Assembly (NCBI GenBank): GCA_016219595.1 | Contig: JACRLY010000080.1 | Span: forward strand, 1 to 35,178 | DNA: 35,178 nucleotides | Reading direction: 5' to 3' | Source of the DNA: Ignavibacteriota bacterium | GTDB lineage: Bacteria; Bacteroidota; Ignavibacteria; Kapaibacteriales; UBA2268 | Shown here: piece by piece, positions 9,420-35,178 of the stretch | Position numbering within the stretch: the first letter of the stretch is position 1 | Layout: every line of letters begins with the position of its first letter | Program-made: the position numbers and the translations under genes | Notes under the pieces: model-generated | What the model saw: the letters and a program-made list of their open reading frames with translations, nothing else | The model's database searches: none | Told to the model about the DNA's origin: nothing

Positions 9420-9490
9420 AAATATAAATATGAAAATTTATTATAATCAATTTGTAGATCACTATTCATTAATAAAAGCGCGGGGACTTT

Positions 9491-10204
9491 ATGAAATGTG
9501 AAAAATGCGGGAATGAGTATTTATCTCAATCCTATTTCGCTACACCGACAATTTGTAATGATTGTTTTAATAAGTTGTCTGAAGAAGAAAAACAGCAATT
9601 GATGAGCCAGGCTTATAATTATTATCCAATTGACCAATATGCATACAGGATAGGATTCGGAAGAAGATTGGGAGCATACCTGATTGATTGGGCATTTGTT
9701 AATCTTTTATTTGTGATTGCATTTTTTGCAACTGGATTATATGATGAATTCAAAGGTTATTTTTATGATTTAAGCGATTTGATGAAATTTTTCCAGGACC
9801 CTGGTTTAATGCAGGAATTTACTAATTCTATTCTGCCGATTACATTTATTCTGACATTTATGTATTATTCGCTAGAAATTGTATTGGCGGCAACTCCCGG
9901 TAAAATAATCCTTGGAATTCAGATTGCAAACCAGGATAGAACACAAGCTACTATTATTACATTATTTACCAGGTTTGTGTTAAAACATTCCAATTCGATT
10001 TTCAGTTTACTTGCATTCGTTATTGCTGTCAAAGCATTTGATTTTGTAGGTTCCTTGCTTGGTTTAGCATTTATTGTCGGTTGCTTTTTTGTATTAGCAT
10101 CAAAACGCCAGGGCTTCCATGATATGATTGCTAAAACGGCCGTTTTCAGAAAAAAAGAAGTTCTAGATAGGAATAATGTTGCCATAAATGATAATTCATT
10201 GTAA
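9491..10204 (+). CDS. RDD family membrane protein with N-terminal zinc ribbon
   Basis: N-terminal CxxC...CxxC ('MKCEKCGNEY...TICNDCFNKL') followed by 'GFGRRLGAYLIDWAFVNLLFVIAF' (RDD motif) and 'PGKIILGIQI...ASKRQGFHDMIAKT'. Confidence 0.85.
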   Translation: MKCEKCGNEYLSQSYFATPTICNDCFNKLSEEEKQQLMSQAYNYYPIDQYAYRIGFGRRLGAYLIDWAFVNLLFVIAFFATGLYDEFKGYFYDLSDLMKFFQDPGLMQEFTNSILPITFILTFMYYSLEIVLAATPGKIILGIQIANQDRTQATIITLFTRFVLKHSNSIFSLLAFVIAVKAFDFVGSLLGLAFIVGCFFVLASKRQGFHDMIAKTAVFRKKEVLDRNNVAINDNSL

Positions 10205-10301
10205 AATTTAGAATTTTGAATTCTGAATTGGAAATAGGAGTTAGGAAATAGAAAATTTATTGGAAATTGGAAATTATTAATTGATTTAAACAGGTTTAGT
10301 A

Positions 10302-11597
10302 ATGGGTAAGAAAAAATCTAAAAAGAAATTATTTATTGTTCTCGGCATAATATTAATCTGTATAATTGTCATTTTTGCTTTTTTCTCCTCACAGGGGACA
10401 AAGGCAATTTCAGTACAGGTATCGAAAGTCCAAAAACGCACTATAACTCAAACTGTATCGGCTATTGGAAAAATTCAGCCTGAAACGGAGGTCAAAATAT
10501 CATCGGAAACAAGCGGTGAAATAATATTTCTATCCGTGAAAGAAGGTGATACAGTAAAAGCAGGTCAAATGTTAATTAGAATCAAGCCTGATATTATAGA
10601 AAGTCAATTGCAACAAGTGTTAGCCGCTGCAGAAGCAACCAAACAGGATATCGATGCACGCAAATCTGAACTTGCCCGGACTAAAGCCGAATTGCAGAGA
10701 ATGAAAGAACTTTATGACAAAAAATTTGCTTCACAGGAAGAGTACGACAAACTCGTTTCTGCTTACAGCCAGGCTGATGCTGCATATAAAGCCTCGATGT
10801 CACGCTATGACCAGGCAATGGCAAGTTACAGGCAAGTCAAAAGCAGCGCTGAAAGAACAATAATATATTCTCCTATCAACGGTGTAATTACAAAACTTGC
10901 AGTCGAACAAGGTGAAAAAGTTGTTGGTGTTGCTCAAATGACCGGTACAGAACTGATGACTGTATCTGATTTAAATGTTATGAATGCAGAAGTTGAAGTC
11001 GATGAAAATGATATAACCATGATTCATATAGGTGACACTACCCGGATTGAAATTGACGCTTTACCCGAAATGGTATATAAAGGTGTAGTAGTAGAAATAG
11101 GTCATTCTGCATTATTAAATCAACTCGGCACTCAGGACCAGGTTACTAATTTCAAAGTAAAAATCAGGTTATTGGATAAAGAAGCCAGGCTCAGACCCGG
11201 CATGAGCTGCAATGTTGAAATTGAAACTGAGACAAGGCATAATATACTATCTGTGCCTTTGCAGGCAGTTACTGTTAGGGACACAGTATTGGGTATGAGA
11301 GCAATGGAAAACAAACAGGACGATATGAAAGTCAATAAAGAGGAAGAAAAAGAAAACAGGGATAAAAAGAAGAAACCGCAAACCGTTGTTTTTGTTAAAA
11401 AAGGCGATATTAGCAAAATGATGCCTGTCAAGACGGGTATTAGCGATGATGGATATATAGAAATAATTGAAGGTTTAAAAGAAAACCAGGAGATTATTAG
11501 CGGTAATTTTCTTGCTGTCAGTAAACAGCTTTCTGACGGCACCAAAATTCGTGTTGATACTTTACTAAAGAAAAAGAAAAAAGCGAGTAGTAAATAA
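10302..11597 (+). CDS. efflux periplasmic adaptor subunit (MacA/HlyD family)
   Basis: N-terminal TM; 'GKIQPETEVKISSETSGEIIFLSVKEGDTVKAGQMLIRI', coiled-coil hairpin, 'RTIIYSPINGVITKLAVEQGEKVVG', 'LRPGMSCNVEIET'. Confidence 0.93.
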   Translation: MGKKKSKKKLFIVLGIILICIIVIFAFFSSQGTKAISVQVSKVQKRTITQTVSAIGKIQPETEVKISSETSGEIIFLSVKEGDTVKAGQMLIRIKPDIIESQLQQVLAAAEATKQDIDARKSELARTKAELQRMKELYDKKFASQEEYDKLVSAYSQADAAYKASMSRYDQAMASYRQVKSSAERTIIYSPINGVITKLAVEQGEKVVGVAQMTGTELMTVSDLNVMNAEVEVDENDITMIHIGDTTRIEIDALPEMVYKGVVVEIGHSALLNQLGTQDQVTNFKVKIRLLDKEARLRPGMSCNVEIETETRHNILSVPLQAVTVRDTVLGMRAMENKQDDMKVNKEEEKENRDKKKKPQTVVFVKKGDISKMMPVKTGISDDGYIEIIEGLKENQEIISGNFLAVSKQLSDGTKIRVDTLLKKKKKASSK

Positions 11598-11674
11598 GTT
11601 ACAATAGTTAGTAGTAGAATAATTTCTGAAAATATTTCAGAATAAACAGATACAATAGATAATGATTTGGAATA

Positions 11675-12397
11675 ATGATGATTAATACCGAAGAAAAAAA
11701 TAACGGGAACACGATAATAGAAATAGAGCATATTGCAAAGATATACCAGATGGGTACTGAATTTGTCCATGCAATTAGAGATATTACACTTAAAATTTAC
11801 AAGAATGATTACCTGGCTATAATGGGTCCTTCAGGTTCCGGGAAATCAACCCTAATGAATATTATCGGATGTCTCGATACTCCAACTAAAGGAAAATATC
11901 TTTTTAAGGATATGGATGTCAGCGAGATGACAGACAATGACCTTGCTTCTATTCGTAATAAAGAAATCGGTTTTGTTTTTCAGACTTTTAATTTATTAGC
12001 CCGTTCGTCATCGCTGAAAAATGTCGAATTACCTTTAATTTATGCAGGAATAAGTAAATCCGTAAGAGATGAAATGGCAATGAAAGCACTTGAAAATGTT
12101 GGATTGAGCGACAGGGTAAATCATAAACCAAATGAACTTTCAGGCGGTCAGCGTCAAAGAGTGGCAGTTGCTCGTGCATTGGTAACCGAACCGTCCATTA
12201 TTTTAGCAGATGAACCTACTGGAAATCTTGATACAAAAACCGGCCTTGAGATTATGAATCTATTTAATGAATTATGGAAGGCAGGTAATACTATCATTCT
12301 TGTTACTCATGAAGAAGAAGTTGCCAACTTTGCTAAAAGGATTATTAAATTACGTGATGGTTTGATAGAAAATGATTCTATAAATCATCAGCAATAA
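11675..12397 (+). CDS. ABC transporter ATP-binding protein (MacB/LolD type)
   Basis: Walker A 'GPSGSGKST', signature '[15 protein letters not shown]', Walker B '[11 protein letters not shown]'. Confidence 0.95.
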
Positions 12398-12425
12398 AGT
12401 TTGTCTTAAGAGTCTAATACCGTAT

Positions 12426-13682
12426 ATGAAGTTTAGTGAAATAACTGAGAATATTAAAATTGCCTTTGAAGCAATGAGAGTTAATAAACTCAGGTCTCTT
12501 CTTGCTTCTTTGGGTGTTGTTATCGGTATTTCATTTGTTATTTTGATGGGATGGGTGTTGTCAGGACTTGACCAGGCACTGGAAGACACTTTCAATATTA
12601 TCGGTACAGATATGCTTTATATCGATAAATGGGATTGGGCAGGTGGAAGAAACTGGAAAAAAATTCGGCAGCGTAAGGATATAACTTATGACCAGGCTAC
12701 GGAATTTTGTGAGAAAATAAAAAATGCAGAGTTGGCTATTCCTAATGCCAGGGAATTTGGTTATAAAATCAAATATAAAAATGAAGAGTTCCAGGGGATG
12801 AGTTTTATTGGTACAAGGTGGGAACATTCTATGACTCCCGCTGGTTCAACCTATATCGGAAGGCATTTCACTCAATTCGAAGATGATATTGGTTCTAATG
12901 TTATTGTTCTTGGTTATAAAGTACACCAGGCACTATTAAATGAGGGAGACCCGTTAGGACAATATGTGAAAATTGAAGGAAGGAAATTTCTTGTAATCGG
13001 AGTGATTAAAAAGCAGGGAACAATGCTTTTTGATTTTGTCGATAATCAGTGCTTTATGCCGATTAAAGCATTTCAATCAGTTTTCGGCAGATCCGGAAGG
13101 TCTGTCTCTGTTGCAATAAAAGCAGGAAGTATAAATAGCCTTGATGAAGTACGTGCCGAATCAGAAGGATTGATGAGGCAAATCAGGAATATAAAACCAG
13201 GTGAAGAAAATGATTTCTCAATAAATGAAACAAAAGCTTTCGAAAGCACGGTTGAAGTTCTCAGGCTATCGGTTTGGAGTGTTGGCATAGGTATGACTGT
13301 ACTTTCATTCCTTGTTGGAATAATTGGGATTATGAATATTATGTTTGTTTCAGTTACTGAAAGAACCAAAGAAATCGGGATTAGAAAAGCGGTTGGAGCA
13401 AAGAAAAGAACTATATGGATGCAATTTATTATTGAAGCGGCAATATTGAGTTTTATCGGCGCTGTAATTGCTTTTATAGGTTGTTCCGTGTTTGTTTATT
13501 TAATTGCAACATTACTTCCTAAATTTGTTCCTGAAACAGCATTCTTGTCTCCAATTCTCCCTTACGAATTGCTTTTAATTGCTTCATTCGTTTCAATCTT
13601 TGTTGGCATGTTAGCAGGTTTGGTCCCGGCTGTCAGGGCTGCCAATCTTGACCCGGTTGAAGCTTTAAGGAGAGAGAATTAA
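12426..13682 (+). CDS. ABC transporter permease (MacB/FtsX type), copy 1
   Basis: 'AFEAMRVNKLRSLLASLGVVIGISFVILM', MacB_PCD-like periplasmic domain, 'VTERTKEIGIRKAVGAKKRTIWMQFIIEA', 'PAVRAANLDPVEALRRE'. Confidence 0.95.
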   Translation: MKFSEITENIKIAFEAMRVNKLRSLLASLGVVIGISFVILMGWVLSGLDQALEDTFNIIGTDMLYIDKWDWAGGRNWKKIRQRKDITYDQATEFCEKIKNAELAIPNAREFGYKIKYKNEEFQGMSFIGTRWEHSMTPAGSTYIGRHFTQFEDDIGSNVIVLGYKVHQALLNEGDPLGQYVKIEGRKFLVIGVIKKQGTMLFDFVDNQCFMPIKAFQSVFGRSGRSVSVAIKAGSINSLDEVRAESEGLMRQIRNIKPGEENDFSINETKAFESTVEVLRLSVWSVGIGMTVLSFLVGIIGIMNIMFVSVTERTKEIGIRKAVGAKKRTIWMQFIIEAAILSFIGAVIAFIGCSVFVYLIATLLPKFVPETAFLSPILPYELLLIASFVSIFVGMLAGLVPAVRAANLDPVEALRREN

Positions 13683-15278: not shown

Positions 15279-18254
15279 ATGAAAAATTTTTCCTCCTTTT
15301 ATATTTATTTATCTGTTTTCATTCTCGCTTCATTTATACATCAAATCGCATCAGCACAGTATTTACTCTCAGTTAATAAATTACCGTCTTGGCTAACTCA
15401 AGAAAATACTATTGAAAAAAAATTGGAATCTCCGATTGAAATGGCACCAAGAAATGCTAATCCAATGTCAGGTGAATATTATCAGAAAGCAATAGAACAC
15501 TTAAAAAATATGCCGGATGAAAATATAAATTCTAAAAATAAAAATGCTCAAATACAATCAATAACTCAATGGCAATCTATTACTGCTACAAGAGTACCTC
15601 TGAAAGATAACCCCAACATTGCCGCACATGGTAGAATCAGAACTCTATATTGGTTCCTTAATTCTTCCAATCCTTCGGGCAGTATTTGGGAATCTTATAT
15701 AGGTGCCAGTAGTGGCGGAATTTGGAAAAAATCATGGAACAGACCTGACAGCTGGTGGTATTCTTATGGAGATAAATTACCTAATCCTTCTGTTGGAGCC
15801 TTATGTGTTTATCACGATTACATTCGCGGTGATGTAATATATGCTGGTACGGGTGACTGGGAAAGATTCAATGGTGCCGGACTTTTTATGTCTACCGACC
15901 AGGGATCTTCGTGGAATAAAATTCCACTTATGGACGGTACAAATGAAGTCATTCCCACTGCAATAACTTCAATCATTAGAAAAGAAAATTACGGTTCTCC
16001 TGATACTATGTATGTTGCCACCGATATGGGTTTCTTCAGGTCTGCTTACGGTGGCACAACCGGATTTACGAGGATACCCATTGTTGCGGAACCCAATTGG
16101 GGTATTTTTGCTATGGTTAAAAATCCTGTCAGTCAGAATATATTATATGCATCTTTACCTTACAGGGGTATTTACAAAACTACAAATTGGGGTAGCACAT
16201 GGTTTCCAGTTAATAATGGATTACCCGATATGAGTAAAACCGGCAGGACTATGTCTTTGGCTATCAGCCAAAGTAATCCCCAGGTTTTATATGTTGCTGT
16301 TACTGATACAAACAGCGATATTCAAGGCGTATTTATCACTACTAACGGTGGTGACATTTGGACAAGAACAAATGCTCCGAATGATATTTCAATTGCCGGG
16401 CAGGCTTTCCATGCAAATGCAATTGCTGTTCATCCTTCGGATTGGAGAATTGCTTATGTAGGTTCTGTAAATTGTTATATAACCAGGAATGCGGGACAAA
16501 ACTGGGACAGGATAGATCCCGGTCATTCAGATATAACGGGATTTTATTTTCTCCCGAACAATCCAAATACGGTTATCATAACAAGCGATGGCGGAGTATT
16601 CATTCGTGATGACAGCAGAAATACAATCCAAAACACTTCTGAAAATTTTTCAGGTGGTGTGCCGCTACAGGAGTATGGGATGGACTATGCTGTAAGTGAG
16701 CCAAACATGATGATTGCCGGAACTCAGGACAATGGAACGATGGTTTCAACAACAGCTTCAGTATCTTCCACAAAAAATTGGACTGAATTTTACGGTTGTG
16801 ACGGAGCTAATTATGTTTACATAGACCCTGTAAATTCAAACTACGCATATTTTAATTCCTGGTGCGGTGAAACTAATCCAAGATTCAGAACACCCAACAA
16901 AGGTATCAATGTTGATGATATTAACAGCGGATTGGCAATGGTTTATTATTCACCTATTGGGATGAATAAATTCAACACAAATTATATTTTTACATATACT
17001 AATCAAGCTGTTTACTTTTCATCCAATCGTGGTAACGATTGGAGAAGAATCAATAACCTTTCGATGGATTTTACTGCAGGACAATTTCCGAAGGAAGCAC
17101 CAGCCGGATTAGCCGTAAGTAATGGTGCCGGAACTAATCCTGTATTATATGTTTGTTTTTGGAAACCTAAACCTTCCGACGTTATTCCTTCGGAGCCGAA
17201 TCCTGAAAGAAAAATTTTCGTTTCTGAGGGTGTACCTGGTTCCATGATTAACAGAATATCTTATCTTCCTGATTTATCTACTGTCAGGGCTGTAATTGCT
17301 GATAACTGGAATCCAAATATAGCATACGCTTTTCCTGAAGCACCTGTTTTCAAATTATTTAAAACATCAGACAGGGGATTGACCTGGAACAATATTTCAG
17401 GTAGCCGGCCCGATTCCTCACTACCGCCGGCGAATGTGAATTATGCTGTTTCTGTTCCCGGTGATGCAAATACAATTTTTGCAGGAACTGATGTCGGAAT
17501 GTTTAAAACCTCGAATAATGGTTCAACTTGGCAGAAATACCAATACGGCTTACCTATTGTACCAATAAATAATATTGTTTATATACCAACAGCCGGTAAT
17601 GATTTACTTAAAATTGGAACTTTCGGCAGAGGATTTTGGGAAAGGATTATTGATGGTGATGACCCTAATTGGACTCCTGCACCTACTGTAATTCGGAGAG
17701 AAAATCGATGTCCAGATTCTTTGATTTATTGCCGTTTATATTGGTCTATTATTCATTTGAGGGCACTCGACAATCCTGTCTGGAGAATTCCTCCCGGCTG
17801 TTTCATGGTTGCTAACGGACAAGGTACAATTGAAAGGTCATTTGATGCCGGTCAGACCTGGGAAATGTTCCAGTTGCCAACAAAGGAAAATATTACTTCA
17901 ATTGCGCCTCTTAGCGAATCTGGTGCTTTTGCTGTAGGAGAAGAAGGCGGTATGTTCATTACAAAAGACTATGGGCAGACCTGGAATCAAGTACAAACGC
18001 AATATAATGTGCCTCTACTTTCAGTTGCATTTTCATCTTTCAACGATGGTTACATTGTCGGTCAGGACGGATTATTATTAAGAAGCAACGATGGAGGAAA
18101 TTCATGGTCGGAATTTATGAATGACCCGGTAAAAACTTTTAGTCAAATATATTTTGTTAATTCCGGCTTAGGTTTTATTGCTGGAATGGATAATAAATCA
18201 AAGCCTGCTACTCCATTTATGCTTAGAACAAATGATGGTGGTAAATCATGGTAA
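15279..18254 (+). CDS. secreted BNR/VPS10-like and Ycf48-repeat beta-propeller protein, upstream fragment ending at an in-frame TAA
   Basis: Signal peptide 'MKNFSSFYIYLSVFILASFIHQIASAQ'; repeated 'TSDRGLTWNNIS', 'SNNGSTWQKYQYGLP', 'NDGGNSWSEF' motifs. Ends mid-repeat at 'NDGGKSW*'; homologous repeats continue in the same frame. Confidence 0.85.
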   Translation: MKNFSSFYIYLSVFILASFIHQIASAQYLLSVNKLPSWLTQENTIEKKLESPIEMAPRNANPMSGEYYQKAIEHLKNMPDENINSKNKNAQIQSITQWQSITATRVPLKDNPNIAAHGRIRTLYWFLNSSNPSGSIWESYIGASSGGIWKKSWNRPDSWWYSYGDKLPNPSVGALCVYHDYIRGDVIYAGTGDWERFNGAGLFMSTDQGSSWNKIPLMDGTNEVIPTAITSIIRKENYGSPDTMYVATDMGFFRSAYGGTTGFTRIPIVAEPNWGIFAMVKNPVSQNILYASLPYRGIYKTTNWGSTWFPVNNGLPDMSKTGRTMSLAISQSNPQVLYVAVTDTNSDIQGVFITTNGGDIWTRTNAPNDISIAGQAFHANAIAVHPSDWRIAYVGSVNCYITRNAGQNWDRIDPGHSDITGFYFLPNNPNTVIITSDGGVFIRDDSRNTIQNTSENFSGGVPLQEYGMDYAVSEPNMMIAGTQDNGTMVSTTASVSSTKNWTEFYGCDGANYVYIDPVNSNYAYFNSWCGETNPRFRTPNKGINVDDINSGLAMVYYSPIGMNKFNTNYIFTYTNQAVYFSSNRGNDWRRINNLSMDFTAGQFPKEAPAGLAVSNGAGTNPVLYVCFWKPKPSDVIPSEPNPERKIFVSEGVPGSMINRISYLPDLSTVRAVIADNWNPNIAYAFPEAPVFKLFKTSDRGLTWNNISGSRPDSSLPPANVNYAVSVPGDANTIFAGTDVGMFKTSNNGSTWQKYQYGLPIVPINNIVYIPTAGNDLLKIGTFGRGFWERIIDGDDPNWTPAPTVIRRENRCPDSLIYCRLYWSIIHLRALDNPVWRIPPGCFMVANGQGTIERSFDAGQTWEMFQLPTKENITSIAPLSESGAFAVGEEGGMFITKDYGQTWNQVQTQYNVPLLSVAFSSFNDGYIVGQDGLLLRSNDGGNSWSEFMNDPVKTFSQIYFVNSGLGFIAGMDNKSKPATPFMLRTNDGGKSW

Positions 18255-18323
18255 AATGTAATTGACATTCCTACCGATTTAATAATTAATAAAGTATTTT
18301 TTACATCCGAAACCAATGGCTTT

Positions 18324-18962
18324 ATGCTTGGTAACGGAGGATTTCTAAGGCAAACATTCGATGGTGGAGCCAATTGGGAGAACTACGGTTACAATGAAGC
18401 AAAATCAGATTTATTTGATATTGGATTCAAAACTCAGGAAGAGGGATTTATCACAGGAGCAAACGGACTGATAATGAGAACTACTGACGGCGGTAAAAAT
18501 TGGTACAAGGAAGAAACTCAGACAAGCGACAATTTTTATAATATCGTAGCCGATACAAACAATGTGATAGCTATAACTGATACGGTATTATATAAGAGAA
18601 ATTACCTGAATAACAGGGAAACTTATGGTCAGGCTCTCATTCATTGGGTGAATCCTGATTATGATACATTAAAAATTACTGATGTTCATGATATCGATGG
18701 AGTAATCAATGCTCTCGAAGTATATCCTAATCCTGTTAATTCTGTTTTAAATCTTAAATTTTCAAATTCCGGTGCAATTGATGCTGAAATCAGGATTGTG
18801 AATTTAATTGGAAATGAATTAAAACTTTATAAAGAAAAATGTCAAACTCAGGGAACTTACCTTTTCAGTTACAATTTGAGTGATTTAGATAATGGAATTT
18901 ACTTTATTCATCTCAAAACAAAATATGGAACTTTTGTGAAAAGAGTTGTTCTCATAAAATAA
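18324..18962 (+). CDS. downstream fragment of the same propeller protein carrying a type A T9SS C-terminal sorting domain
   Basis: Same frame as 15279 (difference 3045 = 3x1015). 'FDGGANWENYGYN...TTDGGKNWYKEE' continue the repeats; 'LEVYPNPVNSVLNLKFSNSG...LSDLDNGIYFIHLKTKYGTFVKRVVLIK' is a classic Por_Secre_tail-type CTD. Open frame actually resumes at 18255. Confidence 0.85.
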   Translation: MLGNGGFLRQTFDGGANWENYGYNEAKSDLFDIGFKTQEEGFITGANGLIMRTTDGGKNWYKEETQTSDNFYNIVADTNNVIAITDTVLYKRNYLNNRETYGQALIHWVNPDYDTLKITDVHDIDGVINALEVYPNPVNSVLNLKFSNSGAIDAEIRIVNLIGNELKLYKEKCQTQGTYLFSYNLSDLDNGIYFIHLKTKYGTFVKRVVLIK

Positions 18963-19993: not shown

Positions 19994-21988
19994 CTATTTC
20001 TCAGCTCCAAACCAATCATCAATCTTACTTTCTATATTTTTCTTATTCACACATGTTAATGCATAAAAACATGATTCGCCTACCGGTGCATTTTTATCTA
20101 AAAATGATTCGGTTTCTGATTTCAATGTAGTCACTAACACTGCATCTTTTTTCTCAGTCAGACGGTACAATCTGTATTCTTTTATATTTTCCTGCATTGT
20201 TTTATTCCATTTTAACATTACCCCTTCTTTTATTCGTGCAACATTCAAACTTGAAATTGATACTGGTCTGAAAACAGGTATCTCGATAATTGCCGGGGCA
20301 CTCAAATTACTTTTACTTGTACCTATTGAATACGATTCTACAGCATATAAATATGTTAAACCTTCTTCAGCGGTAGAATCCTCAAAATAATTCATAGAAT
20401 TATCTTCTGCTTTTCCATTTACGACAACAAATGATGTAGAATCACTTCCATCAGCTTTTAATATTTTTCTGTATAATTTATAACCGATAATATTTTTGTC
20501 AATTTCAGCCACATCTGACCATGTCAATAAGATACTTCCGAAATTATATTTTGCTCTGAGATTCAATGGTGTTTCTAATGAAATACTAATTTCCGGTGAA
20601 ACGAAAACCTTTTCTGAAAAAGGACTAATATCATAGCTTGTATTAGCCGATTTAACCGCATAAACCAAAGAAATGCTTTTGACATTTTTCAATGAATCTG
20701 TGAACTGTACATTCAGACTGTCGGTTAGAATTATATCGGTTATCTGGAGAAGAGTATCATTCTGAGTCATATCAGAACGGTAAACATAATAACCGCGTGT
20801 ATCAGCAGTCGGCTTTCTCCATTTGAGTGTTACAACTCCGTTTTTAGATACAGCTTGTAATTCCAAAGGTGGCTCTGCTTTTTTGACTGCACCAAGCATA
20901 CCGGTAATTCTTGCACTTGGAAGGCTTTGTCCATAAGCATTATTTATTATCAGGTAATAAAAATAAGTTGTAATTGGATTTACCTGGTTGTCAATAAACA
21001 TTGTATCACCTGGATTAGCACTGCCAATGCGATTGTATCCTTTGTCGTATTTATCACTTTTGTAAATATCAATACTCCTAAGAAACTCCGGTACATCGCT
21101 TTTCCAGCGAATTCTTATTGAGTTCAAACTATCAATACTTTCAGTGTGTAATGCTTTAATATAAGATTCTGCCTTGTTTATCAAATTTACAATTCTTATT
21201 GTATCTGATGCATTCCCGGGATTTCCATATAAATCATAAGGAATTGCATAATACTGATATATTTCTTTTTTATGTACTAAAGTATCAATAATTCCTATAT
21301 AAACACTGTCATGCCTGTTTGAAAACCCGACAAAAGGACCAATTTCTGCAAATTCGGTTTGCATATAATTACATCTGAATACCTTCACTCTCATCAATCC
21401 AATATGTTCAGGTGCATAGAATCTAAGATAAATCCTGTTTTCTTCAGGATTACTGTATATAGATTTCAATTTTAAATTCGGAATTACAGTATTATAATTT
21501 ATAGGTTTTAATGTACTGATTTTATCTGATTCATTTGTTTTTGATATGATTACTTTATACTTGTAAGTATTACCTTTTTTGACATCTGTATCATAATATG
21601 CCGTTCCCAATGCCTCACGATACATTGGAAAACCACCGTAAAGGGGAACGGAGTCAACATCATTTGTCTTTATGATAAAATCCCAAATATTCTGTTTGAA
21701 TTTTTCTTCAGGCAATTCATAAACATTGTTATGTGCATTAATATTAACCAGATTTTGAAAAAAATCATCATAATTAGATTTGAACACAAGTAATTTGATT
21801 AACTTCCAATCTTCCCTGGCTTCATCAGTACGGAATATCTGATAAACAAAATCTCTTGGTATTTTATTTCCGCACATTATATATATTCCTTCAGGACCCG
21901 GAGCAAGGTAAGGATATTCAGGTTGTTGTGCAAAACATACACCAATGTTCATTATTATTGCAAACAATAGTAAATAATACTTCTTCAT
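19994..21988 (-). CDS. secreted fibronectin type III domain-rich protein
   Basis: Signal peptide 'MKKYYLLLFAIIMNIGVCFAQ'; repeated FN3-like segments 'PPLELQAVSKNGVVTLKWRKPTADTRGYYVYRSD', 'TPLNLRAKYNFGSILLTWSDVAEIDKNIIGYKLYRK', 'SSLNVARIKEGVMLKWNKTMQENIKEYRLYRL'. No T9SS CTD seen. Confidence 0.8.
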   Translation of the reverse strand: MKKYYLLLFAIIMNIGVCFAQQPEYPYLAPGPEGIYIMCGNKIPRDFVYQIFRTDEAREDWKLIKLLVFKSNYDDFFQNLVNINAHNNVYELPEEKFKQNIWDFIIKTNDVDSVPLYGGFPMYREALGTAYYDTDVKKGNTYKYKVIISKTNESDKISTLKPINYNTVIPNLKLKSIYSNPEENRIYLRFYAPEHIGLMRVKVFRCNYMQTEFAEIGPFVGFSNRHDSVYIGIIDTLVHKKEIYQYYAIPYDLYGNPGNASDTIRIVNLINKAESYIKALHTESIDSLNSIRIRWKSDVPEFLRSIDIYKSDKYDKGYNRIGSANPGDTMFIDNQVNPITTYFYYLIINNAYGQSLPSARITGMLGAVKKAEPPLELQAVSKNGVVTLKWRKPTADTRGYYVYRSDMTQNDTLLQITDIILTDSLNVQFTDSLKNVKSISLVYAVKSANTSYDISPFSEKVFVSPEISISLETPLNLRAKYNFGSILLTWSDVAEIDKNIIGYKLYRKILKADGSDSTSFVVVNGKAEDNSMNYFEDSTAEEGLTYLYAVESYSIGTSKSNLSAPAIIEIPVFRPVSISSLNVARIKEGVMLKWNKTMQENIKEYRLYRLTEKKDAVLVTTLKSETESFLDKNAPVGESCFYALTCVNKKNIESKIDDWFGAEK

Positions 21989-22126: not shown

Positions 22127-25100
22127 TTACTCCACAACACTACTGCAGTTATTACTGCAGCTTCCGGTGCCTATATTGACATCAACACCTCCGGTACCAA
22201 CAGTAACGTCGGCTTTCAAACTGATAAATGGTTCAGTATCACTTCCTAATTCAAATATTGTTCCGTCACACCCTATCAAATAGGGTATCTTCTGTTCGAG
22301 TTTACCATAAATGTTAATACTTGCACATATACCAAAATTAATATCATCCGGATATGTGAATTCCAATTGTCCCTTTATGATTGCTTCTGCTTTTGCATAT
22401 AATGAAGTACAGGTTATTGCACTCAATTCTAATTCGGCAACTGCATACAACATTACTGATACACCTGCACTTATCGGTGATGCGAAATTAGCCCAGGCAG
22501 CAGCTTCCACACCTACTTCTAAGCTTACCGATGCACTCGCAATTACAAGGTTCACCGATTCATTGAATGTTAGTTGTGGTATGCTCTTCCTTCCCGTCAC
22601 AAAAAATCCGGCAAATGTTGTTGCATTCTCAAAAGCGCAGGGCAGTCCTTTCCCGATTGAATGACTTGTTACCATATCAAGTGTAGACTGTGGAATTCCA
22701 CCCATCTTGCCTCCTGCGTCATAAATCCCAATTAACAATCCCACGCTGAACACTCCAACAGGTGTTACCTCTGCCTCCGCCGCCGCAGCAAAATAAAATC
22801 CGTGCGGGTCTATGCAAATCTCAGCACATCCACTTATTTTAATCGGACCAATCTCCTTATCCTCGAAATTCAGAGTTCCGATAAACCTCGCATTCGGCAA
22901 ATCAAATGTCATTGTGAAATCACCGAATTCAGTGTTTGTTCCGGATGTAGTTATTTTCTGATTTTTTACATCCGCATCTGTTTTTATTTCTCCATAGACA
23001 GCAAGATTTAATGGCTTTGTCCCAAATCCCTTATCTGAGAAGCTACCTGCAGGATAAAGCTTCAATCTCAAAATATCCCAGTCATTGTTTTTCACCACCA
23101 TTCTCGAGCTGTCTACCCTGAATTTACCTCCTTGGGCACCACCCAGGTCAATGAACTGGTCTCCGACTCCCGGGTCCCTATCGATTCTAATTGTGATTAT
23201 ATTATTCACCTTTTTCTTATTCAGGATGATAAATATTGAATCCAATTTTCCGGGTTCTCTCACATGTCCGTAAAGTTTAAGGTCACGATTACTGATTAGC
23301 TGTTGATTATAATTAGCCCTCGATTCGAATTTAACATAACCCGGTGCATCGAATGTAATATCTGTTGGAAGCATCTCAACTTTTAAATTACCACTAGGTT
23401 TTGTAAACTTTAGCTTGTAAGTCAAATCATTAGCCACTCTTGGTATCTCAAAATCCATCAATCCGTCTATCTTAAACATATCGGCATAAGAGTATATTGC
23501 TAACGGTTTGAATGTAACTATATCATAAAATGGCATTTTTTCACAATCCGGTGAGAAACTGACTATCTGTTCACCGTCACTCAATAAACTGACTGCCTGT
23601 AATTTCAAATCTGACGCAAATCCCGGTAATCCCGGTACCTTAGCCGCTGGATTTCCTATGAATATCAACTTATAATGAGGCTTAAGGTCTAATCCGCATT
23701 TAGGGTCAAGTCCGAACTGGGCTGATTGAGGATTAGTCAGATTCATTTTACAAATGCCGCCCAAAGTTAATTGCGTTACATTCGGTTTTGCAATCGTTGA
23801 TGGTATATTTACTTCAATTAACGTGGTCGCCGGATTCTGCGGGTCTAATCTTATATTTGACCATGCGTGGGGGACAAGATAAATTATTCCCTGTGAATTA
23901 AGAGTGCTGTTCTCTATTTTCGAGTCGGCATCAAACTCCAAAAACTTGAATTTTAGTTTTTGCTGATTTGCATCTGTCAGATAATAAATTTTTCCTTGTT
24001 TGTACCAATTATATATTATCGAAAAATGTGCTGGATTTGTACAATCTTCAAATGATGTTATCATTTTATCATAAGTGCTATCTTTTGCTAAAGCCATATA
24101 AAACTGGTCATCCTGGAATCGGAAATAACTCCCCGGGAAATTAAATGAATTATCAACTATCCTTGCTTTAGAACTCAAATGTCCTCCAGTTAGTGAGTCC
24201 TTTACAACTTTCAGATAATTATTCCCTTGTCCACCTGCTGCCAATAAAACATTGTAGTTGAAAGTTTTGTTTCCCCATTCCAAATTTATTGTATTCGGTG
24301 GTGGGGACTTACCTTTTAATCTCACTTTCATTGATGGCAATGTTAGTGGAAATGTAGAACTCCCCGGCTGTGCTTCAAAATATGGCCTTCCCTTATCATC
24401 AAACTTATCTTTGCCCGGTCGCACAACCAGGTTCCCCAAACCTGCATATTGAGAACTGTCCAGCAGTTCAAAAGCATTTGCTGATTTACTGAAATCTATC
24501 AATCCGTTCAGTTCAAATTCACCGTTAAGTTTCTCAACTAATTTATGCACTTTAATATGAAATCCATGCAATCTCTGAAGATTCGCAACTTTAAATTCCT
24601 TCAATTCAAAATTACACTCATATACAAAACTCTGCCCCTTGTTAAATTCCACCTTCTTCTCTTCACCCGTTAAATTCGGATAGTCTATGTTCCCGTCAAT
24701 CACTGTCCCCGGTATTTGACCGGGTAAATTTATATTCCCTGAACTGTCCTTTGGCGGATTCTCATCAGGCGGCACGCACCTCATATTTATCCATGGCTTT
24801 TGAACATCATTCCCTTTTTGAGGATTTATCCCTTTAAGTGTGTAATTTCCATTAGCATCTGATTTAGTTTTCCTGATATTTGTATTGAATCCGTTAAGCA
24901 CATACACCATCGCATAAGGTACTGCCTTCCCCTCAACTGTAACTTTACCCTTCACTGTCATGCCTGGATTCAACAGGAAATGATAGGATTTGTAAACTTT
25001 TGATTCCTCATTCTGTATTTCAGTATTTACTGGTATTAAATCAGATGTATCAGGCGGCTCAATTTTTAACCAGAAATTTTTCATCGAGGCATTCTTAAAT

Positions 25101-25558
25101 ACAAAACTTGCCTGACCATTGCTGTTAGTTGTGTCTTCATAATCAAGTATTTTCACTATACAATTCGGAACCGGCTGTTTTGTATATGTGTTTGTCACAT
25201 CTATTATTATCCTGTGCTTTCTCTCCTTCACCACAATCTTACCCAAATAATAATTAGTCGTGTCATTCGGTAAATTCTGCAAAGCTGGGATCACAATTGT
25301 ATCATTAAAATACTTCAAATCCACAGGGTAAATATATAACGTGTCAGCATATCCTGTCGGCACTTTCACACTGAACTTTTGTCCTAACTCGGTAAAATAA
25401 ACATTTTGCATCTGCATGACCAAATTCTCATCGCTTTCCTCCTGCATCTCATTCAAATTCAGTTCCAAACTCATATTCATATTCGATTTCACCTGGGACT
25501 TCTTCTTCGTTTTCTTTGCATTGCTCATTTGTATATACTGCTGTTCCACCAAAGGCAC
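22127..25558 (-). CDS. downstream fragment of giant surface protein with carboxypeptidase regulatory-like domains and Cys-containing beta-rich C-terminal region
   Basis: ORF track start is GTG at 25558, directly after the in-frame TAA 25559-25561; first ATG 25528. 'GMTVKGKVTVEGKAVPYAMVYVLNGFNTNIRKTKSDANGNYTLKGI' is CarboxypepD_reg-like. No signal peptide. Confidence 0.75.
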   Translation of the reverse strand: MPLVEQQYIQMSNAKKTKKKSQVKSNMNMSLELNLNEMQEESDENLVMQMQNVYFTELGQKFSVKVPTGYADTLYIYPVDLKYFNDTIVIPALQNLPNDTTNYYLGKIVVKERKHRIIIDVTNTYTKQPVPNCIVKILDYEDTTNSNGQASFVFKNASMKNFWLKIEPPDTSDLIPVNTEIQNEESKVYKSYHFLLNPGMTVKGKVTVEGKAVPYAMVYVLNGFNTNIRKTKSDANGNYTLKGINPQKGNDVQKPWINMRCVPPDENPPKDSSGNINLPGQIPGTVIDGNIDYPNLTGEEKKVEFNKGQSFVYECNFELKEFKVANLQRLHGFHIKVHKLVEKLNGEFELNGLIDFSKSANAFELLDSSQYAGLGNLVVRPGKDKFDDKGRPYFEAQPGSSTFPLTLPSMKVRLKGKSPPPNTINLEWGNKTFNYNVLLAAGGQGNNYLKVVKDSLTGGHLSSKARIVDNSFNFPGSYFRFQDDQFYMALAKDSTYDKMITSFEDCTNPAHFSIIYNWYKQGKIYYLTDANQQKLKFKFLEFDADSKIENSTLNSQGIIYLVPHAWSNIRLDPQNPATTLIEVNIPSTIAKPNVTQLTLGGICKMNLTNPQSAQFGLDPKCGLDLKPHYKLIFIGNPAAKVPGLPGFASDLKLQAVSLLSDGEQIVSFSPDCEKMPFYDIVTFKPLAIYSYADMFKIDGLMDFEIPRVANDLTYKLKFTKPSGNLKVEMLPTDITFDAPGYVKFESRANYNQQLISNRDLKLYGHVREPGKLDSIFIILNKKKVNNIITIRIDRDPGVGDQFIDLGGAQGGKFRVDSSRMVVKNNDWDILRLKLYPAGSFSDKGFGTKPLNLAVYGEIKTDADVKNQKITTSGTNTEFGDFTMTFDLPNARFIGTLNFEDKEIGPIKISGCAEICIDPHGFYFAAAAEAEVTPVGVFSVGLLIGIYDAGGKMGGIPQSTLDMVTSHSIGKGLPCAFENATTFAGFFVTGRKSIPQLTFNESVNLVIASASVSLEVGVEAAAWANFASPISAGVSVMLYAVAELELSAITCTSLYAKAEAIIKGQLEFTYPDDINFGICASINIYGKLEQKIPYLIGCDGTIFELGSDTEPFISLKADVTVGTGGVDVNIGTGSCSNNCSSVVE

Positions 25559-28500
25559 TTAATTCAGATTTTTAATATCAAATTCTTTCAGGTACGCCGC
25601 CTGTTCTGTCTTAGTCATCTTCCCGTTCTTTGTCCTCACATAACATTCAACAGCTTTTCCTTCTTCATTTATAACATACCCGTAAACAGTACCCTTCGGC
25701 ATCATCAGCACCTGCGGAAAATGCATCTGCTGTCCCATCTTCAGCGATATTCCGCTCGGCACTGGCGGTATGCACTCCTTACTCGCTGACTGAGTTACTG
25801 TATCAACCGAACCCGTAAGCTTCGTCGCTCCATACAAATAATATCCCGGGCTATTAAATTTCAACCTGTACCTGTAATGATTTATATTATCATACTTCGC
25901 CGGCAAATTCTTAAACACAAAATAACCATTCTGATAAGCTTCACCCACAATCCTTACACATCCTCCTGTACCTGTATAAAGTCCCATGTCACTGTCATCA
26001 GATTTCTTCCCTGAATAAAGCATTACAATTCCAAAATTCACGCTACGCATCGCATTCGACGCATCCAGAACACGTCCGGATATTATTGGTTTCTTCGGCT
26101 CGAGGTAAACATTTATCGATAAGCTCACCGGCTTATAATCCTCTACAAACAAATAATCATACTCATTCCTGTAGTACACTTCTGCTAATTTTGCATTCAT
26201 CTGGCTTTCATAATTCTGCCACGCAACTTCTGCTTTGGCTGCATTTGAAAGGCTTCCAGCATGAGTATTCTCCCATGCCTCATCTATCTCCTTATTGTTC
26301 GAATACGCTGTATCCTTCTTCCAGTCATCATAACCACGGGGGAAATAAATAGTTCTTTTTTGGTAAGAATTTTCGCCAACAGTATCGCTTGTGCTTATTT
26401 CAATTTTATAGTCATCCCAATTCACATTCTTATTGTGCAAAAACAATCCCGTGAATCCTGCTCCCGTTTGCTTATCAACGTATTCTTCACCATGTAAATA
26501 ATTATCCCATCTCGTAATCTTCACAGTGCTACCGTATATCACTCCACCCGGTTCGCTCTGCTCCAGATTTTTAGGATTCTTTCTCGGCACTACATTCAGT
26601 TTATATGTCCTCTTGTATGCTATCAATGTTCCCACATCGACAGAGTCCAAAGGTTGTATAAGAATATCATTTGATGGATTATAAATATATTGCTTCGTGT
26701 AATCAATTACCACAACTCTCGTTGTCCTGTGAAGCTTACCGCTGTATCCGGCAACATTGCAAAACTCCCCGTTTCCTGTTCCGAAATTACCCGAACTCTG
26801 CCAACTGCCAAGTGAATCTATGTGAGCAAAATTCTTGAAAACAAATTTCCCTTCACCGTTTGTCGTCGTTGTTGCCAATAATGTATTCCCATCTCCGAAC
26901 GGTTTCGACAAATCTGCTTCCAGCTGTGCTGCCTGCTGTCCCGTATTAGTTACACTCACTGCATTATTATGTTCTTCAAGCACATGATATGGGTCGATTA
27001 TAGTCTTGTTACCATTATTATCTTCTACGTAATAGGTAACCATCAAACCGATTTGCCTGTAATTCATCGGCTTTATATTCGATTTCGGGTCACTGGGGTC
27101 TCGCGAAACCAATTGTCCTGAAACTGATGCTGTCGGCGGATTATTTGAAATAATTGTTGCTTTCTTATCTACCTTAAAATTATAAATTTGATTTATATAA
27201 TTATAGACAAGCACATATAAATTCGGTACAAATTTTTGTGAAGTCAGCCAATATTCACTCCAATTCTTCTTTACCTGACCATTAATAATTTCTTCCTGCC
27301 ACATATCAACAAGGTAATTATCCCCATTCATCCAATTGACAATCAGTTTATCAATAGTTACAATTGTATGTGCTTTACCATCGCTTCCAATCACCGTTTC
27401 AACTTTTCCCTGTGACACCTGTTTCATCTGGTATAATTCCTTCTTTGGGTCACCAGGCTCGATTTCACCCTCATAATAGGGTATCTCTGCCTTGCTTCCC
27501 ATACGGTATACACTTACTTTCACGTTCTGTGGATTCAGGTCTTTAAAATTTCCCTTATTATACCCTTTACTCACCTCAAACTTCAACTTGTAACTCCAAA
27601 CATAAGTCACAATTTTCCCTAAATTGATAGAATCTGCATTCAACTCTATTTTCTTATTAATTTCCAGATAATAAAAATTATTTATTAAAAGTACGTAATA
27701 TTCAAACAATCTTCCTTTCACCAAAGTCGCAGTATTTATATTACCGAATTTCTTATTCACCTGGTATTGCATGATTTTATTTAAATCCCCGCCATTCTTT
27801 GCTCCTACAATAGGTACACTGAAACTTCCATCCTCGTTCAATGTAACAGGTACATCTGCTTTACCCATCCCTTTATAATATAAATTCTGGTCAATGCTGT
27901 CAGCTATTATCTCATTTGTAACTGTATCCCTAATCATAAGGAATCTCTTTAGTTTAACTCCGGGAGAATTGACCGGGTATTCATCCGTATAATGCTGGAA
28001 CCTGTACATCAGTTGCCCGTTTATATTATATACATTCTCAGGTAAATCAAGGTAAGCATAATCAGCATTAATTGTGTCTAAAGCATATTTCTGTGCTGTC
28101 GAATCGGGCAAATTTAAATTAGTATTTTTCAACACATCGAACTGTTTAAAATCAACACTCATCGAATTAATGAAATGAACTTTATATTTTATAAATGCAG
28201 TGTCGCTCTGTTTTGCAGTATTATTTTTCCAAAGCACATAAAAATTCTTTTTATTATTAACTTCTATTTTCGGAGTTTCTCCAATCGAACCGGCTTCTTT
28301 ACACGTTGGAATTATAATATCAATACCTTTTTCAATATTTGATGCAGTAGTATCCGGTGTATGAGGAGTTTCAACAGTTTTATATATGAATTTCCATGCC
28401 TCGCTCACTCCCGCATTTTTAAACATTACATTATTCGCCGGGTCTCGTGCAACAACTCTCCATGCGTATGTCTCCCCGTTTAAAAAGGTCGGGTCATTAG

Positions 28501-29266
28501 GAAAGGCCACATAATTTGTAGTTGGTAAATCCTTTTCAAAATAAAATTGTGATGTGCTGTACATAACTGCATTCGGATTATCTGCCGGATTAACCATCTT
28601 TGCAATTTGCAGTTTATATAATGTTCCCAATGGTGCAGTAGGGGAGCCAATCCATGTAAAAATCACTGGATTAGCAACGCTTATACTCTTCAATGTATCC
28701 TCATTTGCCGGCTGTATCAATATCGGCGGTTCAGGATATTGTATTGAAATATTCTGACAAGCATCTTCCGATACCGGTTCACCTGTGTTATAATCATACG
28801 CTCGGTAACATACATCATATATCCCTTCCGGCAGCGAGCCAGACCTCATCAGCTTCTCTCTTTCGATACCTACTATATCGAGGTCCCTTACATCAAATAA
28901 ATTTCTTAACTGTACACCTGAAATTGTTGTCGGAATATTCGGTTGCAATATAATCGGTGTTAATGGTTTATGCCCGGGTTTTGTCGAAATTATGATACCA
29001 TTGTCAACTCCCTTAATCATTCCTCCAAGCTTTATTTCCCGGTTTACCTGGTCAGTATTAACAAGTATCAGAAATGTATTATTTTTCCCCTCGAAATAAT
29101 CCGAAAAATATGGAGAATAAGGGGGTACAATATTTAATGTAATTGTTACTACATTGTTTTGGGCTTGTGTGTTTATATTGAATAATAAGAATAGTAACAC
29201 AAATCCTAAATGCATCATTAAGTCCGAAGGATGAGAATAAAATGATTTAATATATCCCTTTGTCAT
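25559..29266 (-). CDS. upstream fragment of giant secreted protein with FN3/Ig-like and carboxypeptidase regulatory-like domains
   Basis: Hydrophobic N-terminal segment 'LMMHLGFVLLFLLFNINTQAQNN' (signal peptide); 'PPILIQPANEDTLKS...FTWIGSPTAPLGTLYKLQIAKM' FN3-like; ends '...GTVYGYVINEEGKAVECYVRTKNGKMTKTEQAAYLKEFDIKNLN*'. Confidence 0.8.
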   Translation of the reverse strand: MTKGYIKSFYSHPSDLMMHLGFVLLFLLFNINTQAQNNVVTITLNIVPPYSPYFSDYFEGKNNTFLILVNTDQVNREIKLGGMIKGVDNGIIISTKPGHKPLTPIILQPNIPTTISGVQLRNLFDVRDLDIVGIEREKLMRSGSLPEGIYDVCYRAYDYNTGEPVSEDACQNISIQYPEPPILIQPANEDTLKSISVANPVIFTWIGSPTAPLGTLYKLQIAKMVNPADNPNAVMYSTSQFYFEKDLPTTNYVAFPNDPTFLNGETYAWRVVARDPANNVMFKNAGVSEAWKFIYKTVETPHTPDTTASNIEKGIDIIIPTCKEAGSIGETPKIEVNNKKNFYVLWKNNTAKQSDTAFIKYKVHFINSMSVDFKQFDVLKNTNLNLPDSTAQKYALDTINADYAYLDLPENVYNINGQLMYRFQHYTDEYPVNSPGVKLKRFLMIRDTVTNEIIADSIDQNLYYKGMGKADVPVTLNEDGSFSVPIVGAKNGGDLNKIMQYQVNKKFGNINTATLVKGRLFEYYVLLINNFYYLEINKKIELNADSINLGKIVTYVWSYKLKFEVSKGYNKGNFKDLNPQNVKVSVYRMGSKAEIPYYEGEIEPGDPKKELYQMKQVSQGKVETVIGSDGKAHTIVTIDKLIVNWMNGDNYLVDMWQEEIINGQVKKNWSEYWLTSQKFVPNLYVLVYNYINQIYNFKVDKKATIISNNPPTASVSGQLVSRDPSDPKSNIKPMNYRQIGLMVTYYVEDNNGNKTIIDPYHVLEEHNNAVSVTNTGQQAAQLEADLSKPFGDGNTLLATTTTNGEGKFVFKNFAHIDSLGSWQSSGNFGTGNGEFCNVAGYSGKLHRTTRVVVIDYTKQYIYNPSNDILIQPLDSVDVGTLIAYKRTYKLNVVPRKNPKNLEQSEPGGVIYGSTVKITRWDNYLHGEEYVDKQTGAGFTGLFLHNKNVNWDDYKIEISTSDTVGENSYQKRTIYFPRGYDDWKKDTAYSNNKEIDEAWENTHAGSLSNAAKAEVAWQNYESQMNAKLAEVYYRNEYDYLFVEDYKPVSLSINVYLEPKKPIISGRVLDASNAMRSVNFGIVMLYSGKKSDDSDMGLYTGTGGCVRIVGEAYQNGYFVFKNLPAKYDNINHYRYRLKFNSPGYYLYGATKLTGSVDTVTQSASKECIPPVPSGISLKMGQQMHFPQVLMMPKGTVYGYVINEEGKAVECYVRTKNGKMTKTEQAAYLKEFDIKNLN

Positions 29267-29306: not shown

Positions 29307-30893
29307 TTAAAAATTATATATGTAGCCAACACTGCTCCTGTATTCGGTAAAACTCGGATTAGTTCCGCTCAAACGCGAATCAATCAAATTCACGTCAAAC
29401 CTTACATTGTGTGAATTTGCTAATTGATATGAGCTCTGTATTGTAGCTGTAGTCGTTGCTCCCGAACTAACACCGTTAACATTTTGAATCTGGTAGCCAA
29501 CCGAACCACCAATATTGATTGAACTTAAAGTCCAATTCAATTGAACAATCGGACCAATAAACAAACTCTTCGAATTTGCCATCGTTGACTGAACTGCATT
29601 AATATTTAATCCATAACTAATTCCCGATTTAATCAATACAGTCTGATAGGTGAGTGTTCCCGTTAAATTCTGAGTCTCTGTAGTTCCTGCAGTTTTTTTA
29701 TTAAGGTCATTTAAGGTTTGGTATCCTCCCATCAATAAAATATTATGAACTGCCGATTCCCCTGACATTGTAATTCTAAAAACAGAATTGAAATTATGAT
29801 TTACCCTCGATACTTTCATAGAATCTACAAATGGAATTGTATCTATCCTGGGAAATATTTTTCTTGTTTGGGCTATCCCGTAGCTCGAATACCTCAAATC
29901 TATACCATAGCTCTGCTTCTGATGAGACAAATCGATTGAGCCGATTATTCTGTTCGATGTGTATGTTTTTGTTTTCATTAGATTATCATTTTGAATCCCA
30001 ATGCTTCCGCTTACTCTCAATAAATTATCAAAAACAGTGAAATATGGTGACAATGTTATATTTTCAACATCCGATTCCATGTAATAAATACCCATTGATT
30101 TATAATCAGGGTCAATCCTCTTGTATGCAAGCCTCAAGCTGAATCCTTTTCCCCTGTATGTTAATCCGGTTTGAAATGCAGTAGTTAATTGTGTAGATGT
30201 CCTCACATTATAAATACTCTGAAATTGCTTCAAAATTCCACTGCTCGTCGAATCGTTTATTGCAGACGCCCTCGTGTCAAGTGTATATACACTACCTGCC
30301 GCATCAATATCCATACTCAAAAACGAAAACGGTGAGAATCTGCTCGTTAATCCCAATACCATATTCTCTGCAGGCTTATATAACACACCAGTGGTGTCAA
30401 CACTTCTCAAATAATTTGTATCAATCGAATTAAAATCATCCTTTGCTCTTAGCAATATCAAATCGCAATAATCAGTCTGAGTTCCAAGACCGAATTTAAC
30501 TGCATATCCCATTCTCTCAAATGTTGGGGCAATCATTCGGGTTGACGATGAATCTCCTACTGTCGCTTTCAGGAATCTCCCATACATAGCACCAAACCTG
30601 AAAATGCTAGGATTAAGCTCGATTCCTCCTCCTAGAAAAGTGTGTCCCGACAATGTAAAAGGCGAATAACTCAGATTTCTCCAGCCGGCATGAGCTGTAA
30701 TCCATTTATATTTGGGACTAACTCCATATTGATTAAATGGCTGGATAAAACTCCTGTTTTGCTCACTGATTGTCGCCGAAAACGGAAATGATATGCCGAA
30801 CAAATTAATTGTAAATGAGCCGACCAGGGAATAGTCAAATGGCTTGTATCGGGCATCCATACCTCCTGATATTCCATAATGGCTCAAATTCAA
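29307..30893 (-). CDS. outer-membrane beta-barrel-like protein, apparently 5'-truncated (no signal peptide)
   Basis: Amphipathic beta strands throughout and aromatic C-terminal ending '...SSVGYIYNF*' typical of OM barrels. ORF track start is TTG; coding-like sequence continues upstream in frame ('IADDKIITASGSIG') to a TAG. Confidence 0.7.
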   Translation of the reverse strand: MNLSHYGISGGMDARYKPFDYSLVGSFTINLFGISFPFSATISEQNRSFIQPFNQYGVSPKYKWITAHAGWRNLSYSPFTLSGHTFLGGGIELNPSIFRFGAMYGRFLKATVGDSSSTRMIAPTFERMGYAVKFGLGTQTDYCDLILLRAKDDFNSIDTNYLRSVDTTGVLYKPAENMVLGLTSRFSPFSFLSMDIDAAGSVYTLDTRASAINDSTSSGILKQFQSIYNVRTSTQLTTAFQTGLTYRGKGFSLRLAYKRIDPDYKSMGIYYMESDVENITLSPYFTVFDNLLRVSGSIGIQNDNLMKTKTYTSNRIIGSIDLSHQKQSYGIDLRYSSYGIAQTRKIFPRIDTIPFVDSMKVSRVNHNFNSVFRITMSGESAVHNILLMGGYQTLNDLNKKTAGTTETQNLTGTLTYQTVLIKSGISYGLNINAVQSTMANSKSLFIGPIVQLNWTLSSINIGGSVGYQIQNVNGVSSGATTTATIQSSYQLANSHNVRFDVNLIDSRLSGTNPSFTEYRSSVGYIYNF

Positions 30894-31087
30894 TCCGATT
30901 GAACCGCTCGCAGTAATTATTTTATCATCTGCGATTCTCTAGTATTTTATTTATTTTTCTATTCTTATTATACTCAATCAATACCCCTATTATATAATAT
31001 AAGGAATTTTTTGAATTATCTGAAAGGAAATCTATAAACAATTACAATTTTTATTTAATAGTAATGAAAATAAAACAGGAGGGATTT

Positions 31088-31750
31088 TCATTTGTAATTT
31101 TCATATTCAATATATTTTGCCGTTTTCAATGCGGTTTCTCTTCCGTGTATTTTTTCAACTATGTACAGAGCCCCGTCTATTCCCGCCGATACACCTGCCG
31201 TAGTAATTATTTTACCGTTGTCTGTAAACCGTTTTCCGTCACAAACTATTATCTTCGGATATAATTTTTGTAATCTTTTTCTTGCTCCGTACCAGGTTGT
31301 TGTCTCCAATCCATCCAGCATACCCAAATCTGCAAGTATGAATGCACCCGTGCAAACTGACAAAACATACTCAGAGTTGACTGTCTTTGCTAATATCCAT
31401 TTACCAGTCTCAGGAAACTCTTTTGATAAATTTAAATTACCGCCCGGAATAACCAATATATCAGGCTGAGGACAATTAATAATTGTATAATCGGCTTTTA
31501 TTTCTGTATTTGTATGACTTTTAATTGAGGAATTATTAGGTGAAACGGTATATACTTCAAATGCAGATGTCGAATCATTCACCATCGCATCGTTGAATAT
31601 TTCCAGTGGACCACAAAAATCTAAAAGATATACTCCGTCATAAATTAAAATAGCAACTTTTTTTTTGACTCCCTCTGTTGAGTAAGAATTGTAGCTAAAA
31701 ACAAAAATCAATAATAGAAATAATAACGATAATTTAAATTTAGTTCTCAT
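31088..31750 (-). CDS. DJ-1/PfpI (class I glutamine amidotransferase-like) family protein with predicted signal peptide
   Basis: Track ORF starts 31789; ATG at 31750 gives 'MRTKFKLSLLFLLLIFVFSYNSYS'. 'KVAILIYDGVYLLDFCGPLEIFNDA', 'ILVIPGG', nucleophile elbow 'SVCTGAFILADLGMLDG'. Confidence 0.88.
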   Translation of the reverse strand: MRTKFKLSLLFLLLIFVFSYNSYSTEGVKKKVAILIYDGVYLLDFCGPLEIFNDAMVNDSTSAFEVYTVSPNNSSIKSHTNTEIKADYTIINCPQPDILVIPGGNLNLSKEFPETGKWILAKTVNSEYVLSVCTGAFILADLGMLDGLETTTWYGARKRLQKLYPKIIVCDGKRFTDNGKIITTAGVSAGIDGALYIVEKIHGRETALKTAKYIEYENYK

Positions 31751-34330: not shown

Positions 34331-34453
34331 TAATACTCCATTTCGAATAGTTCAATATAAATTTTTGCAAATATAACTAAATTTCCTAATTGATAATTGA
34401 GAATTGAAAATTGATAATGAAATTAGGACATTGGAAAATGGGAGAAAAAAGTC

Positions 34454-34573
34454 TGTCACCCTGCCTTAATCCATGTTCTCAAATTTTTAATTGTCACCCT
34501 GAGCGTAGTCGTAGTATAGTCGAAGGGTCTTCTTAAATCATAAATCCTTAATCCTTGTTCTCAAATATTTTAA
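34454..34573. repeat. intergenic direct repeats: TGTCACCCTG (x2) and CCTTAATCC[A/T]TGTTCTCAAAT[T/A]TTTA (x2)
   Basis: TGTCACCCTG at 34454-34463 and 34492-34501; CCTTAATCCATGTTCTCAAATTTTTA at 34464-34489 versus CCTTAATCCTTGTTCTCAAATATTTTA at 34547-34573. Confidence 0.7.
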
Positions 34574-34593
34574 AAGAAATTTTCTATTTTCTA

Positions 34594-35178
34594 TCATCTA
34601 TTATCTATCTTCCGACTTCCGGCTTCATTTTTCCGACTCCCGACTAACTCCTCTTTAAGATATTTACCCGTATAACTTATTGGAGAATTGATGATTTCTT
34701 CGGGTGAACCCACTGCAATGATTTCGCCTCCTGCGTCGCCGCCTTCCGGACCCAAATCAATCAGCCAATCCGCATACTTGATTACATCTAAATTATGCTC
34801 TATTATGACGATTGTATTTCCCTTGTCTGCAAGCTTAGTCAGCAATCGCAGAAGTATGCGAACATCCTCGAAATGCAATCCTGTCGTGGGTTCATCCAGC
34901 AGGTAAAGAGTTTTTCCCGTGCTTGTCTTCGACAGTTCCGCAGCGAGTTTAACCCTTTGTGCCTCGCCTCCCGACAGGGTTGGAGCCTGCTGTCCCAAAG
35001 TGATGTAAGTCAATCCGACATCCACAAGAGTCTGTAGCTTATTCTTGATTTTCGATATTTCGCTGAAAAACACAAGTGCCTCCTCGACAGTCATTGCCAA
35101 AACATCCGCAATGGATTTTCCCTTGTATTTTACTTCCAAAGTTTCGCTGTTGTACCTTCTTCCGTTGCAGGTGTCGCA
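34594..35178 (-). CDS. uvrA: excinuclease ABC subunit UvrA, C-terminal part (5' end beyond window)
   Basis: Frame stays open to the window end: '[38 protein letters not shown]...[34 protein letters not shown]...[21 protein letters not shown]...[28 protein letters not shown]'. Confidence 0.98.

Follow-up and report, generated by a model that had tools for sequence, protein, structure and literature searches.

A giant exported-protein gene interrupted by one in-frame stop in an Ignavibacteriota assembly: a likely assembly or consensus error

In the window (the whole 35,178-nt stretch of DNA analysed here), one in-frame TAA (25559-25561, minus strand) interrupts the gene of a giant, apparently exported protein, and this split is private to the genome under study (G000). 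Because the gene is uninterrupted in its relatives, and because housekeeping genes of the same assembly carry similar damage, an assembly or consensus error in a one-gene giant protein is the most likely explanation; we favor it with moderate confidence, with a base error as the putative cause of the stop. The split itself looks neither functional nor unusual.

The upstream part (25559-29266, minus strand, 1235 codons) starts with ATG and is terminated by the TAA. Its N-terminus is signal-peptide-like and strongly hydrophobic (Kyte-Doolittle mean of 2.19 over the best 15 residues); a TANFOR-like domain lies at residues 38-168, and there is a long conserved middle region. The first codon past the stop is a GTG at 25558, from which the same frame stays open for 1143 codons down to 22127. 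Only two stops in the whole window, this one and a TAA at 18252, are flanked on either side by over 120 open codons of the same register; hence, a frame of 1143 codons right behind the TAA is not a matter of chance. The initial annotation had given the strand, the register, the coordinates, and the lengths of both parts correctly, and its remark that the downstream part (22127-25558) lacks a signal peptide was borne out, as no hydrophobic N-terminus was found within the first 60 residues (best 15-residue mean of 0.18). As assembled, the giant gene has ~2380 codons, versus 2430-2520 in complete relatives. Two private in-frame deletions lie within it, one of 48 codons (site 28033/28034) and one of 66 codons (site 23794/23795). 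Every relative that covers these stretches has them: both are held by G001, G002, G003, G005, and G020, and the longer one also by G015.

The stop sits in a linker of ~70 codons (25385-25603, boundaries judged by eye from the alignment) that is rich in lysine, asparagine, and methionine, and also in glutamate. A K/N-rich linker had been described at the junction before; the stretch is there, and it turned out to be an insertion specific to this genus, absent from G005, G015, and G020, where the flanking conserved segments adjoin as one continuous stretch. The stop had also been placed inside a carboxypeptidase-regulatory-like domain, a placement that was not confirmed: Pfam at E ≤ 1 gave no CarboxypepD_reg match over the split region, either for two pieces from the window or for five pieces from G001, G002, G005, G015, and G020. 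A CarboxypepD_reg match (E = 6.9e-08) does occur deeper in the downstream part, spanning its residues 201-247. For the orthologous protein encoded on contig L002 of G003, AlphaFold2 models of the junction region (three alignment rows; mean pLDDT of 44) and of the C-terminal region (mean pLDDT of 26) were unusable, and the full protein had no sequence match in the PDB at E ≤ 1.

We searched 54 genomes of the family, G000 included, for the region around the junction. Eight of them, again with G000, gave a match, and only in G000 does that match contain a stop; the frame is open across the TAA site in 7/7 other genomes, with ORFs of up to ~2500 codons. Four of these have the complete gene as a single ORF (2494 aa in G002, 2520 aa in G003, 2506 aa in G005, and 2427 aa in G020), and the copies in G001 and G015 run into contig ends, yet are open across the site. 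The seventh, G071, is a distant relative (~30% identity); it is likewise open at the site, with the TANFOR-like start and the region beyond the site in one ORF, and changes frame ~180 residues further on. Its copy (L159, minus strand, 7111-12476) is spread over two ORFs that differ in frame (1222 and 565 aa), and the second ORF also seems to end out of frame. In the three same-genus relatives G001, G002, and G003, the column of the stop is occupied by a sense codon that is one substitution away from a stop. The frame is thus uninterrupted in relatives, so that the proposal of an original single polypeptide stands and is well supported, and a search of the 54 genomes for homologues divided into two genes at this boundary found none.

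The surroundings of the gene are shared as well. By our reading of the sequences, the upstream neighbor is a beta-barrel-like protein (29307-30893, minus strand) and the downstream neighbor is an intact, secreted, FN3-like protein of 664 aa (19994-21988, minus strand), the latter being in the same place in G003 (L002) and G001 (L003). In Ignavibacteria bacterium RIFOXYC2_FULL_35_21 (G003), the orthologue (L002:1978-9540, 2520 aa) stands in the same order of barrel-like protein, giant protein, and secreted protein (663 aa), and is 77% identical in its best segment, which aligns to the C-terminal part of the window's giant protein. It differs in that the giant is one ORF that includes the 48- and 66-codon stretches, and in that the barrel-like neighbor keeps its signal peptide. 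In G000, a private deletion of ~84 nt at 30948/30949 has removed the start codon and the signal peptide of the barrel-like gene (region 29307-31090).

Both halves of the giant gene are under strong purifying selection. Polarised dN/dS was 0.084-0.098 on the G000 branch versus 0.072-0.090 on the sister branch, with G003 as the outgroup; because G000 has about twice as many silent changes as G002 in this gene block, the assumed tree may be wrong there, and we used the ratios and left branch lengths aside. A gene broken long ago would drift towards 1, whereas these values are low, which argues that the interruption is either very young or absent from the organism.

To place the stop in context, we compared 502 ORFs of the sister genome G002 (0.75 Mb) with 1.14 Mb of the 3.45 Mb of G000, and counted as a lesion any mid-gene stop, internal loss of 12 or more residues, or frame break. 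Pairs had to reach at least 60% identity and 60% coverage, and strongly broken genes are therefore missed. Damage in G000 was seen in 7 of 121 orthologue-like genes, versus 0/121 in G002 in the reverse comparison (Fisher p = 0.014; p = 0.029 without the giant gene). Besides the giant gene with its TAA and deletions, the lesioned genes are gcvPB (TAA at 426 of 484), a TPR protein (TAG at 313 of 564 plus a 93-nt deletion), glgA (278-nt deletion, out of frame), a malic enzyme (133-nt deletion, out of frame), dapD (141-nt deletion), and an unnamed protein (99-nt deletion). The lesions in gcvPB, TPR protein, glgA, malic enzyme, and dapD lie at L091:1860, L124, L191, L195, and L126 of G000 and are absent from G002. 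Within G000 there is no second copy of dapD and no near-identical second copy of glgA (only a 37%-identical paralogue) or of the malic enzyme (for which the only other match is weak). Deletion breakpoints share just 0-2 bases with the deleted ends, and the deletions are therefore unlike slippage between direct repeats.

Several cases were left out of these counts. A stop 6 residues from the C-terminus (L130), a TGA 5 residues from it (L095), and stops within the first 10 residues (L105) were treated as ordinary gene-end variation and do not figure in the 7/121. The reverse count likewise excludes stops in three genes at query residues 7-23 and a stop at residue 364 of 370, and it also excludes a frame change in the L133 pair (62/47% identity). 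In the G001 control, a stop at residue 9 of 261 was treated in the same way. The start lesion of the barrel-like neighbor is not among the 121 pairs. Smaller controls gave no internal deletion, frame break, or mid-gene stop in G003 (16 pairs) or G001 (23 pairs), and an earlier comparison of 100 pairs (queries from G001, G002, and G003), now superseded by that of 121, gave the same picture. A reference-free codon-usage scan for in-frame stops yielded one candidate in 816 kb and missed the known junction; it was too insensitive, and its candidate is not counted. About 1 in 17 comparable genes of this assembly thus has a stop or a clean internal deletion unseen in the sister, and for this reason apparent split genes and small proteins from G000 should not be read as biology. 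The interruption of the giant gene, being one of many similar lesions, is ordinary.

An assembly or consensus error accounts jointly for the TAA, for dN/dS values that stay low, and for the lesions in housekeeping genes. We suggest that the locus would be one gene (~2380 codons as assembled) in a block of barrel-like protein, giant protein, and secreted 664-aa protein, and that the TAA would be a private base error in the metagenome consensus, alongside missing segments and false-looking stops in housekeeping genes. If so, the organism itself would produce the protein as a single chain and presumably export it whole by its N-terminal signal. In a 2024 study (PMC11017572), spurious internal stops are attributed to low coverage or low read quality, and stops and frameshifts are analysed with truncations set aside. 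As with the spurious pseudogenes described there, the internal stops of G000 interrupt genes that relatives have intact and that are under selection; unlike them, G000 also has clean intragenic deletions of 93-278 nt.

Three observations count against an assembly error, and two of them speak for a real and very recent nonsense mutation, with the gene, perhaps the gene block, starting to decay in the strain or population. First, 5/7 of the sampled coding deletions preserve the frame (p = 0.045), a tendency more in keeping with true deletions in genes that are translated. Second, the stop, the two deletions, and the lost start of the neighbor all cluster at the giant gene, inside ~7 kb, a pattern that local decay fits too. 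Third, there is no single-base frameshift among the 121 pairs. A recent mutation would also agree with the raised dN/dS of the secreted 664-aa neighbor (0.155-0.164 on the G000 branch versus 0.078-0.085 for the sister copy); the upstream part would then be exported in truncated form, and the downstream part would be untranslated or cytosolic. However, both halves of the giant gene have the dN/dS of a working gene, so the lesion would need to be very young, and decay of a surface protein hardly explains why dapD and central metabolism are similarly hit elsewhere. A recent mutation is the main rival, less probable than an assembly error.

A working two-gene arrangement, in which the downstream part is translated separately from GTG 25558 or ATG 25528 to give a product that works jointly with the upstream one, is very unlikely. 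The GTG directly behind the stop makes termination-reinitiation conceivable, both parts are under purifying selection, and the distant G071 copy is likewise in two ORFs. However, its break lies ~180 residues further on and arises by a frame change, and the boundary of G000 is found in no relative. The cut also splits a unit that runs without a break in G005, G015, and G020, the downstream part has no signal peptide, and, by eye, no clear ribosome-binding sequence precedes either candidate start.

Recoding, in which readthrough or reassignment of the TAA would yield the full protein without any change to the sequence, seems extremely improbable. The frame is kept and selected on either side of the TAA, and in-frame TAAs also occur in a second exported protein (TAA 18252) and in gcvPB; against this, TAA is the terminator of 132 among 198 long ORFs sampled from 816 kb, and no TTA anticodon was found among tRNAs at 37 places (genome 91% complete; one malformed candidate unreadable). 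Relatives have no stop at the site, the residues that they have opposite the giant-gene TAA and the gcvPB TAA differ and do not suggest a single meaning, a TAG is among the interruptions, and there are deletions too. We give equally little credence to the idea that the lineage might tolerate some in-frame TAAs in giant exported proteins through readthrough at a useful rate, which would yield a short exported form and a small full-length share of both the giant protein and the protein with TAA 18252.

The giant protein is a largely uncharacterised TANFOR-like surface protein that occurs in part of the family (8/54 genomes, G000 included), and complete copies exist for study. The match of residues 38-168 to TIGR02542 scores 48 bits, under the curated cut-off of 67 bits. 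In PMC7073777, TANFOR is presented as a domain of large Bacteroidetes proteins proposed to be T9SS-linked polymorphic toxins. The giant protein resembles the TANFOR proteins of that account in having a TANFOR-like N-terminus on a very large exported protein, and in coming from a genome in which T9SS sorting domains abound (G000 has at least 150 matches to the C-terminal sorting domain). It differs from them in its C-terminus, which is conserved among relatives and not polymorphic: over the final 555 residues, identity to the four nearest relatives (G001, G002, G003, and G015) is 71-88%. With this conservation, a TANFOR score below the cut-off, and no recognised toxin domain (none in Pfam or NCBIfam at E ≤ 0.1), the protein, as far as its sequence tells, would not qualify as a TANFOR polymorphic toxin. 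Gene order and sequence character suggest that it is likely an exported surface or matrix protein acting with its barrel-like and secreted neighbors. One of the T9SS sorting-domain matches in G000 (C85:17391-17606) holds a TGA inside.

The second stop of this type in the window separates two ORFs on the plus strand (15279-18254 and 18324-18962) that share one frame, with a TAA at 18252-18254 between them. Both sides consist of BNR/Ycf48-type propeller sequence, and the second ORF ends in a T9SS sorting domain; 15279-18962 therefore looks like one exported protein cut by a single stop. No orthologue of this propeller protein was detected in the other 53 family genomes at E ≤ 1e-40. Elsewhere in the window (790-870, 10195-10290, and 34380-34670), we noted short, A+T-rich, dispersed intergenic repeats that have many copies in sister genomes, as well as one CACCCTGAGCGTAGTCG-type repeat.
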